Of a stretch of DNA of 64,000 nucleotides, positions 3,662-10,848 are shown one piece after another; position 1 is the first letter of the stretch; every line of letters starts with the position of its first letter. A program made the translations under genes and the position numbers. The notes under the pieces were generated by a model that did no database searches, was not told the origin of the DNA, and saw nothing but the letters and a program-made list of their open reading frames with translations. Location of the stretch: NCBI GenBank assembly GCA_905182565.1, contig CAJJCB010000026.1, forward strand, positions 310,001 through 374,000, read 5' to 3'. The DNA comes from Acidimicrobiaceae bacterium (GTDB lineage Bacteria > Actinomycetota > Acidimicrobiia > Acidimicrobiales > Poriferisodalaceae).

Positions 3662-4714
3662 ATGATTACTGATGTATTTACTGATGGTGCTTGTATAGGA
3701 AACCCTGGACCCGGTGGTTGGGCCTTTGTTGTCGATCAAGGCCAATGGGCTTCGGGAGCTGAAGGTAAAACAACCAATCAAAGAATGGAACTGACGGCAG
3801 CAAGTGCGGCTGTTCAATCTATCGACGGGCCTATCCGGGTGCATAGTGATTCAACCTATGTGGTCAACTGTTTTAATCAAAATTGGTGGAAGGGTTGGCA
3901 TAAGAGAGGTTGGAAAAACTCCAAAAATGACCCTGTTGCTAATCGAGATCTCTGGGAGCCTTTCATTGAGCTCGTGGTAGCGCGAGGTAACGTGGAATTC
4001 ATCTGGGTAAAGGGGCACTCTGGAGACAGACTCAATGATGCTGCAGATCGACTAGCTACCTTAGCTGCGGCAGAACAAGAAGGAAGAACTGGTGGCCATT
4101 ACGCCGATTCCATAGTTCGAGGGCTATCAGATGATGATGTTTCAGGAAAAGAAACGCCTGGAGCTAAGCCACGAATTAGCGCAGACAATAAAAATTTCAA
4201 GGAAACTCTAACGACTCACGGGTTAGCTATCTTTGGGCATCGTCCGCCTGATATCGGTGGATACGGAGAAACCTCAACTTCCTTAGGAATAAGAAGGAAG
4301 CTCATAACTATTCTAAGAGCCAAAGCAGAGATGGAAACAAAGTTAGAGATAGTGACAGGATTGAGTCTTGGGGTTGAAATGCTTGGAGCTGAAGCTGCAG
4401 CAGCCAGCGGACTGCCATACGTGGTGATTCTGGCGTTCGACGGTGTAGATGAAAAGTGGCCGGACTCAACGCGTGCCCGCTTCCGAGAGCTACTTGATGG
4501 AGCGCGTCAAATTATTTTGGTAAGTAATGAGACGCCAGTAACAGCAACTGAATACGCAAAAGTAATGGGAAGGCGAGACGACCGAATAATCGCCAGATCT
4601 AAAGAAGCAATAATCGTTCGTAATGCTGAAGATAAGACGATGAAAGAACTACACGGCAAGCTAGATCGCACTTTTGATGATGGGGTATGGGCAATAGAAC
4701 CAACGTTCAAATAG
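3662..4714 (+). CDS. rnhA: RNase HI fused to a SLOG/YpsA-like domain
   Basis: This 350-residue protein begins with a complete RNase HI domain (about 1-140), which cuts the RNA strand of RNA-DNA hybrids. The four metal-binding acids are present: D8 in TDGACIGNPGPGGWA, E43 in MELTA, D63 in SDSTY and D129 in AADRLA, with H119 in VKGHSGD. A linker (about 145-183) joins it to a second domain at about 185-350. That domain starts with GLAIFGHRPPDIGGYG and continues through LEIVTGLSLGVEMLGAEAA and RQIILVSNE, a layout like the YpsA/DUF1273 branch of the SLOG nucleotide-binding superfamily. RNase H assignment is firm; the SLOG call is by pattern and its ligand is unknown. Stand-alone RNase HI is about 150 residues. 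AGGTGA precedes the ATG by 4 bases. The 3' end overlaps the convergent lipoprotein gene by 8 bases. Confidence 0.9.
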   Translation: MITDVFTDGACIGNPGPGGWAFVVDQGQWASGAEGKTTNQRMELTAASAAVQSIDGPIRVHSDSTYVVNCFNQNWWKGWHKRGWKNSKNDPVANRDLWEPFIELVVARGNVEFIWVKGHSGDRLNDAADRLATLAAAEQEGRTGGHYADSIVRGLSDDDVSGKETPGAKPRISADNKNFKETLTTHGLAIFGHRPPDIGGYGETSTSLGIRRKLITILRAKAEMETKLEIVTGLSLGVEMLGAEAAAASGLPYVVILAFDGVDEKWPDSTRARFRELLDGARQIILVSNETPVTATEYAKVMGRRDDRIIARSKEAIIVRNAEDKTMKELHGKLDRTFDDGVWAIEPTFK

Positions 4715-5201
4715 TTTTCTGGAAACCTTCAGAGTTGACTTCAACCTTGGGTGTGGCAAAGCAAATGACTGAACGGTCGTTAGCCCAGGAGTTTGAATCG
4801 GGTGCATAGCCACTGATAGATATTATTTTAGTGACATCCAAAAGCTCGGGTGTGTTCAGAGACTCATCGAAGCATTTCATGAGAGCTATGTTTTTGGTCT
4901 TCTCTAGCCCTGGGTATTCACCGACCGGGAGCTCAAAGATTGCGAAAACCTTGGCAGAGTGAGGTGTGCTGCAAGGAACGCCTAGGACAAACTCAACTGA
5001 GTCACCTTCGTTCGTGAAACAATCTCCGATTTTTAGTCGAAGCACGCCGACTTCGCCTGGGGCCTCGATCTGACCTCTCTCATTTCGTGAAGCCTCGTCA
5101 ATTAGCGAGCTCGAAATCTCTTTATTACACGCGGTAAACATCGCTATCGAAAGCATAAAAAAAATGCTGACTATTACTCGACGTGATCTAACTTTCAACA
5201 A
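4707..5201 (-). CDS. septum-formation-like lipoprotein
   Basis: A 164-residue exported lipoprotein. Basic residues (RSRR) precede a hydrophobic stretch, ending in a lipobox MFTAC with the lipidated Cys at 25. The mature part has a pattern found in the actinobacterial septum-formation domain (Septum_form): LKIGDCF, then VPCSTPHSAKVFAIFELPVGEYPG, a central Cys in ALMKCFDES, and W-NDRSVICFA near the end. The four Cys probably form two disulfides outside the membrane. The name comes from a family annotation; the actual role is unknown. Its start overlaps the end of the upstream SRPBCC gene by 14 bases, so the two are probably translated from one message. Confidence 0.65.
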   Translation of the reverse strand: MLKVRSRRVIVSIFFMLSIAMFTACNKEISSSLIDEASRNERGQIEAPGEVGVLRLKIGDCFTNEGDSVEFVLGVPCSTPHSAKVFAIFELPVGEYPGLEKTKNIALMKCFDESLNTPELLDVTKIISISGYAPDSNSWANDRSVICFATPKVEVNSEGFQKTI

Positions 5202-5619
5202 GATTCGCTATTTGCTCTAACGTCGCTTCCATTTTTTGTGGGTGAGTTGTAGGGAACCGACAAAGTTCGATCGCCCACGGGAAGATTGATGTTGACCAAT
5301 CAAAGGTCTCTGTTACAAGGGTGCCTTCAGGTTGATCTTGTAAAAGGTAGCGCCATCGGTGGCCACCGAAATGCCCCCAAGCAATAAGTCTGTTTTCTTC
5401 GAATTCAAATACACGACTTTTTATCCGGTAGGGCACCCAAAGTTTCATTTCCATCGCAAAGGTAGATCCAAGAACTAATCGACTCTGTTGCCCTTTATAA
5501 GATCTGACTGTTCCAGAACAATCAATTACTGGGTGCTGGGATGGATCTGCTAACAGCTCAAAAATATTTTGAGCCGGTGCATGAATCATACGATCTCTGC
5601 TTACGCTGCGCTGCTTCAC
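5188..5619 (-). CDS. SRPBCC-family (START-like) lipid/ligand-binding protein
   Basis: A 143-residue protein with the SRPBCC (polyketide cyclase/START-like) layout. It opens with RMIHAPAQNIFELLADPSQHPVIDCSG, the usual first helix-strand pattern for a hydrophobic-pocket protein. Later come RLVLGSTFAMEMK, a segment with FEFEENRLIAWGHFGGHRWRY, and VTETFDWS. Members bind or transform hydrophobic ligands in the cytosol; none of them can be named here. The start is GTG (5617-5619). It sits 25 bases downstream of the thioredoxin-like gene and overlaps the next lipoprotein gene by 14 bases, so the three leftward genes look like an operon. Confidence 0.75.
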   Translation of the reverse strand: MKQRSVSRDRMIHAPAQNIFELLADPSQHPVIDCSGTVRSYKGQQSRLVLGSTFAMEMKLWVPYRIKSRVFEFEENRLIAWGHFGGHRWRYLLQDQPEGTLVTETFDWSTSIFPWAIELCRFPTTHPQKMEATLEQIANLVES

Positions 5620-5644: not shown

Positions 5645-6205
5645 TTAATAACCACGGTTTAAGAAGGTGCCTAGTCCCTTTTCGACTTCTCCGGTCGCTG
5701 AAATAAAAATCCAGGAAGGCTGGCGGTTGATTCCGTAGCTTCTCCATAAATCCCCATTCAGATCAGGGATGTGAGTTAAAAAATCTAGCTGGTGTAGGTC
5801 AATAAAACTTTCCATGGCATCGACGGTGTCGCGTCCAGGAACACTAATAACTAGTAACTCATTGTCGACTGAATGTGCCGCTGCGACCGCAGGGGCTTCT
5901 CTGTTACATGCGAGTCACCAGGGTGCCCAAAACCACAAAATTATGTCTTTGCCGATGACCGAGTCGACGTCAAAGGGTTGGCCAGACAACGTTACCTGCC
6001 CGAGTTGCTGCAACTCATAGGGAATAGGAGCAATCGTTTTTTCTAACTCAGAGGGCGCAGAGGCTATTGTCGATTTTTGTGAAAGTGGAGGGCTTGAGAC
6101 ACTCACAGCCGTCGTCTCTTCGAGGAATTGAGCTTCATCGGTGCTCTCGGCACATGCGGTAGCGATTAATGCCACTACAAAAAAAGCGATACATCGTCGA
6201 GCCAT
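5645..6205 (-). CDS. TlpA/thioredoxin-fold lipoprotein with in-frame TGA (candidate selenoprotein)
   Basis: If TGA 5915-5917 is read through, this is a 186-residue exported thiol-redox protein. The signal peptide ends in a lipobox LIATAC (Cys 18). A Ser/Thr/Pro-rich linker follows, then the thioredoxin fold from about residue 63. The active site reads WFWAPW-TGA-LAC, so the TGA (codon 97) replaces the first Cys of the normal WAPWCxxC and Cys 100 remains. After TGA the frame is open for 89 codons to TAA 5645-5647 and encodes the rest of the fold: ELLVISVPG, then SYGINRQPSWIFI with the conserved cis-Pro, then SATGEVE. Selenocysteine at 97 is my inference, backed by the hairpin at 5877-5896. A nonsense mutation or sequencing error (TGT or TGC to TGA) is the alternative. 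It heads a likely operon with the SRPBCC and septum-formation-like genes. Confidence 0.75.
5877..5896 (-). promoter_or_regulatory. SECIS-like hairpin downstream of the in-frame TGA
   Basis: In the message, GCC, an unpaired C, and CUGC form the 5' arm; GGUC is the apical loop; GCAG, an unpaired C, and GGC form the 3' arm. That gives 4 + 3 G-C-rich base pairs around one C/C mismatch. Outside the core, GAA (5897-5899) could pair with UUC (5871-5873) across a 3-nt bulge. The loop begins 26 nt after the TGA. Bacterial SECIS elements are known as coding-region hairpins with a small loop having G in its first two positions, roughly 16-37 nt after UGA; this one fits all three criteria. Pairing was found by eye, without an energy calculation. 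Confidence 0.55.
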
Positions 6206-6389: not shown

Positions 6390-7802
6390 ATGAGTGACCT
6401 GAACTTTGACCTCGTGGTAATCGGTGCAGGACCTGCCGGTTATGGTGCGGCTCTCTACGCGGGAGGCGCTGGCCTTCAAGTGGCAATAATCGAACGCGAG
6501 GATTTAGGAGGCACTTGCCTCCACAGGGGTTGTGTACCAGCTAAAGCACTTTTGGAAACAGCGGCAGTTTATCGAACGGTCCAGAATGCTAAAAAGTTTG
6601 GTATCAGTGCATCAGATCCGAAAGTTGATTTATCTGTCGCTCAGGGTCGTAAACAGTCATTAGTTGATGGTTTGGCAAAAGGTGTTGAACAACTCCTGAA
6701 AAAGCGAAACGTTCAAATTTTCAGTGGGACAGGCCGAGTTGGTCATGGAAAAACTGTGTCCGTAGAAGCTGAAGATGGCTCTATTCGCGTTTTGCGAGGT
6801 AACGCTATTTTGTTGGCGGCAGGCTCAGTACCCCGGAACATCGTGGGATTCGAACCTGATGGTATCCGAGTCATGACATCTAACGAAGTCTTAGATATAA
6901 GCGAAGTGCCGGTGGATGTTGTTGTTCTTGGAGGAGGGGCTATTGGCTGTGAATTCGCATCGATGTTTAGTGACTTAGGTGCCGCTGTGACTATTGTGGA
7001 ACACGAAGGCAGTATTCTTCCAAGCGCAGATATCGACGTGTCTAAAGCCCTACTTCGTGCGTTTAAGAAAAAAAATATCAAAGTCAAGACCGGAGTGAGA
7101 GCAACCGGGCATTCCCCTAGAACTGACACAGTTAGTGGTTCAATTGTGCACCTAGATGACGGTAGCGCCTTGGAAACCGAGCTGATAGTGGTATCAGTGG
7201 GGCGAAGTCCTAGGTCTGATCTACTTGGGTTAGATGGAACATCAGTAAGTGTCGATGGTCGCGGTTTCGTGCAAGTTGATGCGCTATGCCAAACTACTTC
7301 TGAAGGTATCTACGCTATTGGAGATCTGATTGACACTCCTCAATTGGCGCATGTTGGATTTGCTGAAGCGATGATGGTGGTTACCCACCTCCTGGGCGAA
7401 GTTGCTGTTCCTATCGATTACGCAAACGTGCCTTGGGCGATCTACTGCCACCCAGAGGTAGCTTTCGCAGGTTTGACTGAAACTCAAGCAAAGGAACAGG
7501 GCTATCAAGTTACCGTCTCCAAACACAGGTATAACGCGAACTCTAGGGCCATGATCCTGAACGAAACAGAAGGCTTAGTAAAAGTTGTAGCTGAAAAGCT
7601 TCCCGGTGGTGAAGCAGGGAGAATTCTGGGTGTGCATATTGTTGGTCCTTGGGCAACCGAACAAATTGGCCAGGGGTACTTAGCAGTAAATTGGGAAGCG
7701 ACCGTTAGAGATGTAGCTAGTCTGGTACAGCCTCACCCGACGCTTTCAGAACTATTCGGAGAAACTGTTTTGGATCTGACTGGGAGAAGTCTGCATGGCT
7801 AA
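6390..7802 (+). CDS. lpd: dihydrolipoamide dehydrogenase (E3)
   Basis: A 470-residue FAD- and NAD-dependent disulfide oxidoreductase that reoxidises dihydrolipoyl groups of 2-oxoacid dehydrogenase complexes. The FAD fingerprint VIGAGPAGYGAA begins at residue 10. The redox-active disulfide motif GGTCLHRGCVPAK carries Cys 43 and Cys 48. The NAD Rossmann motif is VVLGGGAIGCEFA, and AIGDL marks the second FAD contact. The C-terminal interface motif HPTLSE supplies the catalytic His 449 and Glu 454. All key residues are intact, in contrast to the homologue at 32749. It overlaps the E2 start by 8 bases, so translation is probably coupled, and it is the first gene of the E3-E2-lipBA operon. Confidence 0.96.
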   Translation: MSDLNFDLVVIGAGPAGYGAALYAGGAGLQVAIIEREDLGGTCLHRGCVPAKALLETAAVYRTVQNAKKFGISASDPKVDLSVAQGRKQSLVDGLAKGVEQLLKKRNVQIFSGTGRVGHGKTVSVEAEDGSIRVLRGNAILLAAGSVPRNIVGFEPDGIRVMTSNEVLDISEVPVDVVVLGGGAIGCEFASMFSDLGAAVTIVEHEGSILPSADIDVSKALLRAFKKKNIKVKTGVRATGHSPRTDTVSGSIVHLDDGSALETELIVVSVGRSPRSDLLGLDGTSVSVDGRGFVQVDALCQTTSEGIYAIGDLIDTPQLAHVGFAEAMMVVTHLLGEVAVPIDYANVPWAIYCHPEVAFAGLTETQAKEQGYQVTVSKHRYNANSRAMILNETEGLVKVVAEKLPGGEAGRILGVHIVGPWATEQIGQGYLAVNWEATVRDVASLVQPHPTLSELFGETVLDLTGRSLHG

Positions 7803-9111: not shown

Positions 9112-10848
9112 ATGCTTCGAATACGGTGGCTTGGACAAATGGCATTTGCTGAAGCCTATGATTTGCAACAACAACTATTTAGAAGCAGCGATTCCGACCA
9201 TCTGTTGCTCTTAGAGCATGATCATGTTTTTACAGCCGGGACCAGAGCAGATTTAAATAATTTGTTAGTCGAACCTGCTGCGTTAGGGGCTCCACTAGTG
9301 GATGCTGACCGGGGGGGTGATTTGACTTATCACGGCCCAGGGCAACTTGTCGGTTACCCAATCATGAGCGTTCCAGGCAAAAGAGGTGGAGGAATGGCCG
9401 ACACTGTTGCTTATGTCCGCCAAGTGGAACAAATACTTATCGACGTGGTTACCGAACTTGGTATATCTAATTGTGGCCGGCTGAAAGGTTACCCCGGCGT
9501 ATGGATTGATCCCGATAAGAAACCCCGAAAAATAGCAGCTATTGGACTTCGGTTGAGCAGAGGGCGCTCCATGCACGGATTTGCTTTGAACGTTTCGACC
9601 GATTTGCAGTGGTTCGAAAAAATAGTTCCATGTGGAATAAGCAACTACCCAGTCACGTCCCTTGCAGAAGAAGGAATCGATGTCGACATGGAGACAGTCG
9701 TGGAAACACTAGTAAATAGAGCTGTGAAAATTTGGGGTCTAAAAGGATATGACCGAGCAGATGTAGTTTGGCGACATACTCCTGATGACCTAAGTAAATT
9801 TAGCCGTGGCGAGGGAGCAGGAGATTCAATATCTCGGCAAACGAGCGAAGCGACTGCCATAAATCAAGAACTTTCACCAGTCTTTGCTAATAAAGGAACT
9901 ACTAAACACAGAAAAAGTCGTCTCGAACAAGCGGGTGTAGTAGGAGGCTTGCAGATCAGCTCTAGAAAGCCTTCATGGATGAAAGTAAAGCTTGATTTGA
10001 ACTCCGGGTACAAAGTTCTAAAAAACACAATGCGAGAATTGGAACTTGTCACTGTATGTGAAGAGGCTGGATGCCCGAATATCTATGAATGTTGGGGGCA
10101 AGGCACTGCGACTTTCATGATTAATGGCGAAAGGTGTACTAGAGCTTGCGGCTTTTGCATGGTCGATACGCGGCTTCCGATGCCTATAGACATTGAAGAA
10201 CCTCTAAGAATTGCTGAAGCTGTGCGTCGCATGGATCTAAAGCATGTAGTTATTACTGCAGTCGCGCGAGATGACCTCAGCGATGGTGGTGCTTCTGGTT
10301 TCGTCGATACGATTAAGGCCATTCGCAAGGAAGTCTCAACTACACGAATAGAAGTTTTAATACCAGATTTTAAAGGCCTCAAAGGGCCTTTGGAAGAAGT
10401 GCTAGAGGCTAAACCTGATATTTTAAACCATAACCTCGAGACAATCGCTCGGTTGCAGCGCGCCGTTCGTCCGAGTGCAGGGTATGGACGTAGTTTAGCT
10501 ATGTTAGCTAGGGCAAAACGAGCCGGCTTTACGACTAAATCTGGGCTTATCGTTGGGATGGGAGAGACTGACGCTGAGGTTGATTCAGCCTTGGCTGATT
10601 TGGCTGACATCGGAGTGGACATTGTTACCATCGGACAGTATTTACGGCCGACGACACATCACATTCCGATACAGCGCTGGGTAGAGCCTTCCACGTTTAC
10701 TTCGTGGATAAAAAATGGTACTGAACTCGGAATAGGTCACGTGCAGGCGAGTCCGTTAACACGGTCAAGCTATCATGCGAGCCAAGCGGCACAAGGTCTA
10801 GACGACAGCGACAAACCGGCAGTTGATGCTCAGTACACTCAGCTTTGA
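9112..10848 (+). CDS. LipB-LipA fusion: octanoyltransferase + lipoyl synthase
   Basis: One 578-residue protein carries both steps of de novo lipoate assembly. Residues 1 to about 225 are LipB, which moves octanoyl from acyl carrier protein to a target lysine: RGGDLTYHGPGQLVGYP (67-83), Lys 140 in RKIAAIGLR and the acyl-carrying Cys 174 in VPCGISNYP. A linker of about 60 residues follows. Residues about 285-578 are LipA, a radical-SAM enzyme that inserts two sulfurs. Its auxiliary-cluster cysteines are C316, C321 and C327; the SAM-cluster motif CTRACGFC gives C342, C346 and C349; and RSSYHA near the end supplies the conserved Ser. No stop or frameshift separates the halves. The ATG directly follows the E2 TAG (TAGATG), so it is cotranslated with its lipoylation target. 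Confidence 0.95.
   Translation: MLRIRWLGQMAFAEAYDLQQQLFRSSDSDHLLLLEHDHVFTAGTRADLNNLLVEPAALGAPLVDADRGGDLTYHGPGQLVGYPIMSVPGKRGGGMADTVAYVRQVEQILIDVVTELGISNCGRLKGYPGVWIDPDKKPRKIAAIGLRLSRGRSMHGFALNVSTDLQWFEKIVPCGISNYPVTSLAEEGIDVDMETVVETLVNRAVKIWGLKGYDRADVVWRHTPDDLSKFSRGEGAGDSISRQTSEATAINQELSPVFANKGTTKHRKSRLEQAGVVGGLQISSRKPSWMKVKLDLNSGYKVLKNTMRELELVTVCEEAGCPNIYECWGQGTATFMINGERCTRACGFCMVDTRLPMPIDIEEPLRIAEAVRRMDLKHVVITAVARDDLSDGGASGFVDTIKAIRKEVSTTRIEVLIPDFKGLKGPLEEVLEAKPDILNHNLETIARLQRAVRPSAGYGRSLAMLARAKRAGFTTKSGLIVGMGETDAEVDSALADLADIGVDIVTIGQYLRPTTHHIPIQRWVEPSTFTSWIKNGTELGIGHVQASPLTRSSYHASQAAQGLDDSDKPAVDAQYTQL

Follow-up and report, generated by a model that had tools for sequence, protein, structure and literature searches.

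An in-frame TGA in the gene of a putative thioredoxin-like lipoprotein

The minus-strand reading frame at 5645-6205 of the 64,000-nucleotide stretch of DNA analysed here (the window) contains a single internal stop codon, a TGA that falls exactly where thioredoxin-like proteins carry their first active-site cysteine, and it raises the question of whether this codon is decoded as selenocysteine (Sec) or ends a damaged gene. Retranslation of the frame (MARRC...LWFWAPW-TGA-LACNREAPAV...YGINRQPSW...NRGY) reproduced the layout of the original prediction, in which a signal peptide, a lipobox-like IATA-C, a linker and a thioredoxin fold lead to WFWAPW-TGA-LAC; the 89 open codons said to lie beyond the TGA, including the cis-Pro in YGINRQPSW, are likewise present and end in a TAA at 5645-5647 (Table 1). 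The linker between IATA-C18 and the thioredoxin fold is of low complexity, and homologues show the same organization, with a hydrophobic segment and Cys followed by a low-complexity linker.

The read-through frame matches the Pfam families AhpC-TSA (36 bits, cut-off 26) and Redoxin (31 bits, cut-off 26.6). Its best matches among solved structures are DsbF (3IOS, 1e-24) and MPT53/DsbE (1LU4, 1e-22), in alignments that are ungapped at the TGA and run across both the active site and the QP cis-Pro motif. A single-sequence AlphaFold2 model of the protein was set aside (mean pLDDT 38). The protein had been described as TlpA-like: its place in the thioredoxin superfamily stands, but its sequence is nearer to the actinobacterial DsbE/MPT53-DsbF group than to TlpA itself. 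Judged by sequence, DsbE/DsbF-like is the more exact name, because mycobacterial DsbF and DsbE/MPT53 are its closest relatives of solved structure.

Table 1. Positions of the predicted selenoprotein gene, its elements and its neighbours in the window
Feature	Position	Strand	Basis or remark
Sec-containing DsbE/DsbF-like lipoprotein (predicted), complete CDS	5645..6205	-	186 aa with Sec97
Putative signal peptide (residues 1-17), with lipobox-like I-A-T-A at its end and Cys18 (codon 6152-6154) next	6155..6205	-	sequence, by eye
Thioredoxin-fold (AhpC-TSA/Redoxin) domain, residues ~67-176	5678..6007	-	Pfam and structure matches
In-frame TGA, Sec97 (predicted), first, nucleophilic position of UxxC	5915..5917	-	sequence and homologue column
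Cys100 (TGT), resolving cysteine of UxxC	5906..5908	-	sequence
cis-Proline 163, QP motif of the thioredoxin fold	5717..5719	-	structure-sequence alignment
bSECIS hairpin GCCCCUGCGGUCGCAGCGGC, apical loop GGUC at 5885-5888, 26 nt past UGA	5877..5896	-	comparative and folding
Polyketide_cyc2/SRPBCC-like neighbour (weak, below cut-off), co-directional	5188..5619	-	position conserved in family
Lipoprotein-like neighbour, no Pfam match, co-directional	4707..5201	-	position conserved in four related genera
Dihydrolipoamide dehydrogenase-like neighbour, divergent, locus anchor in relatives	6390..7802	+	named from sequence

The active-site codon is TGA or Cys in related genomes

A homologue was identified in 361 of the 397 genomes of the order, with one internal TGA in almost every best match listed. 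Reading the first active-site codon in 71 loci of these related genomes yielded TGA in 59, TGC or TGT in 12 and no other codon, in agreement with the predicted placement of the TGA at the nucleophilic Cys of CxxC. This is the pattern by which bacterial selenoproteins are recognized, namely a UGA at a redox-active position in a conserved frame, with Cys in homologues. In-frame-TGA homologues were also listed for further orders of this class and, from a smaller sample, for the rest of the phylum, and the six that were read beyond the order have the TGA at the active site, as UxxC. Two paralogues (L097 and L098, family f28) have TGA for both active-site Cys (FWAPWUPFU, a UxxU form), each with a well-paired GGUC hairpin.

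To cover related loci we used a single protein as query, which gave no matches, and an alignment keyed on the peptide WFWAPWC, whose Cys homologues serve as negative controls below. The mycobacterial, streptomycete and nocardial homologues that we read all have Cys, and they came from this latter search, whose peptide meant that only Cys forms could be returned. Named Acidimicrobiia and Ilumatobacteraceae records also hold Cys homologues, which group among the Cys rows of the order in a phylogenetic tree and suggest that the order is Acidimicrobiales-like. On this tree of 92 rows at least three Sec/Cys label changes are required, and the window protein and its family form an all-Sec clade (100/95).

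The distribution of selA follows that of the TGA form. Among the matches listed (E below about 2e-15), selA is present in 96 of the 99 genomes with a TGA homologue versus 141 of the remaining 298 (Fisher 5e-22, with kinship ignored), and in two of the eight genomes whose listed matches are Cys only. The three TGA genomes lacking a selA match are all incomplete assemblies (73-83%).

A covarying hairpin follows the UGA

The hairpin downstream of the UGA consists of a GGUC loop on a 4 bp upper stem, with a 1x1 mismatch and 3 bp below, and folds alone at -9.7 kcal/mol. Together with its spacing from UGA to loop (26 nt), these values lie within published bSECIS limits (apical loop of 3-9 nt, upper stem of 4-16 bp, G in the first two loop positions, 16-37 nt from the UGA and MFE of at most -7.5 kcal/mol; PMC13188914). 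The stability of the hairpin is ordinary for its composition (z -1.2), and the case for this predicted element is comparative. Every one of the 55 TGA rows in the alignment, from which families f10 and f14 were omitted, has the GGUC loop. Of 53 distinct TGA rows, 46 form all four inner pairs, as opposed to 0/12 Cys homologues within the order and 2/81 taken from across Actinomycetota. Paired-side compensatory variants comprise CUGC/GCAG, CGGC/GCCG, GUGC/GCAU, CCUC/GAGG and CUAC/GUAG; cells changed on both stem sides number 29, versus 6.2 in shuffles, and the covariation score is 0.314 versus 0.123 when shuffled (0/500 as high), with slid versions of the stem reaching at most 0.113.

Conservation of this region might merely reflect the coding of EAPAVA, with termination at the UGA yielding a meaningful truncated product, and the EAPxV protein motif is indeed conserved in Cys homologues as well. 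The Cys homologues, however, keep the motif while almost never forming the stem, and the Val codon of the region is invariably GTC where the row has TGA (53/53) but varies among the Cys rows. A product stopping at Trp96, moreover, would be left without half of the fold and the resolving Cys. We accordingly give this explanation next to no credence and retain that of a predicted bSECIS.

A covariance model of the hairpin scored 50 bits in a homologue from another class of the phylum and 49 bits in one from the same order, both outside its building set, and at most 19.3 bits in Cys loci. Scores in four other homologues beyond the order range from 17.5 to 28.5 bits, with an inner stem that is mismatched or different. 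A search of the window's own genome with the model gave no convincing second hairpin of the window type, and the remaining TGA genes there do not conform to the model. The exact stem is not formed in a few TGA homologues (family f10, those of genomes G013, G017 and G273, and some beyond the order). Four TGA homologues without the usual stem (L036, L038 and L040 of family f10, and L083 of f14) present other hairpins nearer the UGA, such as CGGGC-GGC-GCCCG in L036, which suggests a shifted SECIS.

Selection and gene order

Where it could be estimated among close relatives, dN/dS is 0.05-0.33 from codon 16 past the TGA onward; purifying selection acts on the coding part downstream of the TGA. Within the 15 hairpin-bearing codons, synonymous divergence is for the most part reduced (e.g. 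pS 0.08 vs 0.39). These data bear on whether the TGA is a recent nonsense mutation in a decaying DsbE/TlpA-like gene, of which a first inactivating mutation would indeed look like one in-frame stop. The identical codon, however, is TGA in dozens of relatives from many families, which we count as refuting a pseudogene, and both the selection past the TGA and a hairpin present and covarying in TGA homologues, but not in Cys homologues, speak against it. With codon column, RNA hairpin and downstream coding all conserved in relatives, the initial judgement that random decay was unlikely is reinforced, and we consider a pseudogene extremely improbable.

Four related genera share the gene order rnhA, lipoprotein, SRPBCC-like, Sec protein, lpdA, and a fifth has the same order with no lipoprotein gene detected; the TGA gene is present in all five. 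An apparent loss of the gene in the only other genome of the same genus (G352) was rejected: its 6129-base contig stops about 15 nt into the gene, which is therefore unassembled there, with no loss implied. The host assembly is itself a 2.65 Mb draft in 27 contigs, 95.6% complete, and an error in it could have turned TGC or TGT into TGA. Against such an error, the same-locus TGA recurs in separately assembled genomes of the five related genera, and the window's own hairpin has the Sec form; the chance that the codon is an artefact appears negligible to us, and we take the TGA as genuine.

Two other open reading frames of the window have composite domain structures. One (9112-10848, plus strand) combines, in 578 aa, a domain of octanoyltransferase type (LplA-B_cat) with a lipoyl synthase (LIAS_N, Radical_SAM), and relatives align to it nearly end to end, so that this LipB-LipA fusion looks family-conserved. 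In the other (3662-4714, plus strand, 350 aa), an RNase HI domain precedes a YpsA/SLOG-like one that scores marginally below its cut-off, an arrangement also conserved in relatives.

Selenocysteine machinery in the same genome

The genome encodes one copy of selA (2.6e-97) with selB directly downstream (C22:131824), a tRNA-Sec on the same contig 15 kb from the selA locus, and selD (2.7e-104), which has an in-frame TGA of its own in HGAGU. The tRNA-Sec is the single match above the Rfam gathering score (65.5 bits) and is called as tRNA-SeC with anticodon tca by ARAGORN; an Rfam scan limited to the selA locus gave no match. All four components of the machinery are thus present, and together with the TGA/Cys column they support the predicted decoding as selenocysteine; the lack of all such machinery, named with the original prediction as a finding that would refute it, does not apply here. 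Four further likely selenoproteins of this genome, L012 (C12:21547-22488), L192 (C26:122299), L193 (C26:472239) and L195 (C14:5836), comprise the SelD with HGAGU, two peroxiredoxins (one with TPGU, one with SPGU) and a redoxin in which VVWUPPC is followed by a DsbD_N domain.

TGA is the stop codon of 21 of the 49 long open reading frames in the window, and the genetic code is therefore not reassigned. Other tRNAs are able to suppress UGA in some bacteria, and the codon could by the same token be read as Trp, as Cys or through an allo-tRNA instead of as canonical Sec. The genome, however, has a canonical tRNA-Sec (UCA) with selA, selB and selD, only this one tRNA-Sec match passes the cut-off, TGA is a normal stop elsewhere and the bSECIS covaries, so that we rate a different amino acid as very improbable and hold to canonical Sec. 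Beyond this genome, SelA and SelB have been reported in most symbiont bins of a sponge metagenome, from various phyla (PMC5649159).

Proposed function and implications

Because the whole Sec machinery, dozens of relatives with the same UGA and a conserved hairpin are found together, we are highly confident, on sequence evidence, that this is a real selenoprotein gene with a UxxC active site, a confidence that excludes the direction of the redox reaction. Sec insertion at residue 97, export, lipidation, redox direction and substrates are what we infer from this assignment. The product would be a thiol-disulfide oxidoreductase anchored in the membrane and located outside the cytoplasm, akin to actinobacterial DsbE/MPT53-DsbF but with Sec as its attacking residue. 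SelA, SelD and tRNA-Sec would make Sec-tRNA(UCA), and SelB would bind the GGUC-loop hairpin and deliver it at the UGA. In the exported protein, Sec97 would attack as a selenolate and Cys100 would resolve as a thiol, and the pair would alternate between its selenol/thiol and selenenylsulfide states while acting on disulfides (or oxidized thiols) of secreted proteins. A CcdA/DsbD_TM-like membrane protein, encoded next to a Cys-type redoxin on another contig (C27:93014-94032), may be the electron donor here and for exported redoxins in general.

Compared with Cys, Sec has a lower redox potential and higher nucleophilicity. Since Sec lowers the redox potential, we lean towards a reducing or repair role rather than an oxidizing one, but only slightly, because the mycobacterial Cys homologues are oxidants in vitro, where DsbE and DsbF oxidatively fold hirudin (PMC3853704).

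No NCBIfam model exceeds its cut-off for the window protein, and automatic annotation therefore probably cuts or splits the gene at the UGA across the whole order. Sec and Cys replace one another clade-wide in this exported relative of mycobacterial DsbE/DsbF, a disulfide oxidoreductase whose two versions lend themselves to direct comparison, and the tight, covarying bSECIS can be used to find more copies of the family. On a broader scale, the Acidimicrobiia and neighbouring non-Actinomycetes lineages may possess many extracytoplasmic selenoproteins, most of them not yet described, among which the DsbE/DsbF-type protein is mainly Sec, including UxxU, and Cys where selA is absent, a proposal that we find evenly poised between true and false. 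If true, selenium-based disulfide chemistry beyond the cytoplasm would be a regular trait of the Acidimicrobiia and neighbouring non-Actinomycetes actinobacteria.

Comparison with known systems

The TlpA, ResA and StoA families of NCBIfam belong to the same superfamily of exported thiol-disulfide oxidoreductases and match the window protein at 3e-11 to 3e-6, but it falls far under their curated cut-offs (e.g. ResA, 43 vs 170 bits) and outside these families. The UGC-containing TlpA family selenoprotein (NF041054, WAxxUGC_long) shares the ResA/TlpA-like fold and an active-site Sec; its motif, however, is UGC where the window protein has UxxC, and the latter scores 18.8 against a cut-off of 300.

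UxxC had been put forward as a known selenoprotein active site, and such thioredoxin-like forms are indeed on record. One metagenomic study describes UxxC Trx-like 1 (COG0526) selenoproteins (PMC2398784), and two recent reviews list UxxC forms of thiol-disulfide isomerase-like (cd02966) and Prx-like thiol:disulfide oxidoreductase (PF00578) proteins (PMC13188914, PMC9312934). By its sequence, with a thioredoxin fold and a predicted Sec first in CxxC, the window protein belongs with the UxxC thioredoxin-like proteins (cd02966/COG0526) and appears to share their fold class and UxxC position. In the passages searched, the known forms come from metagenomes and other bacteria, and neither Actinobacteria nor Acidimicrobiia are named for them; our literature search found no paper on selenoproteins of Acidimicrobiia or on UxxC thioredoxin-like forms there. 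What the locus adds to this known class is a sequence of DsbE/DsbF type, widely distributed in one actinobacterial order.

The closest known relatives remain mycobacterial DsbE/MPT53 (PDB 1LU4) and DsbF (PDB 3IOS), the best solved-structure matches, which are also exported and carry WFWxPWCxxC. With its single thioredoxin domain, predicted to be exported, its WFWxPW-C/U-xxC motif and its close sequence match, the window protein would fall within the DsbE/MPT53-DsbF group by similarity, with orthology to neither one implied. It differs from both in that the mycobacterial proteins have CxxC, whereas the window gene has UxxC and a bSECIS.
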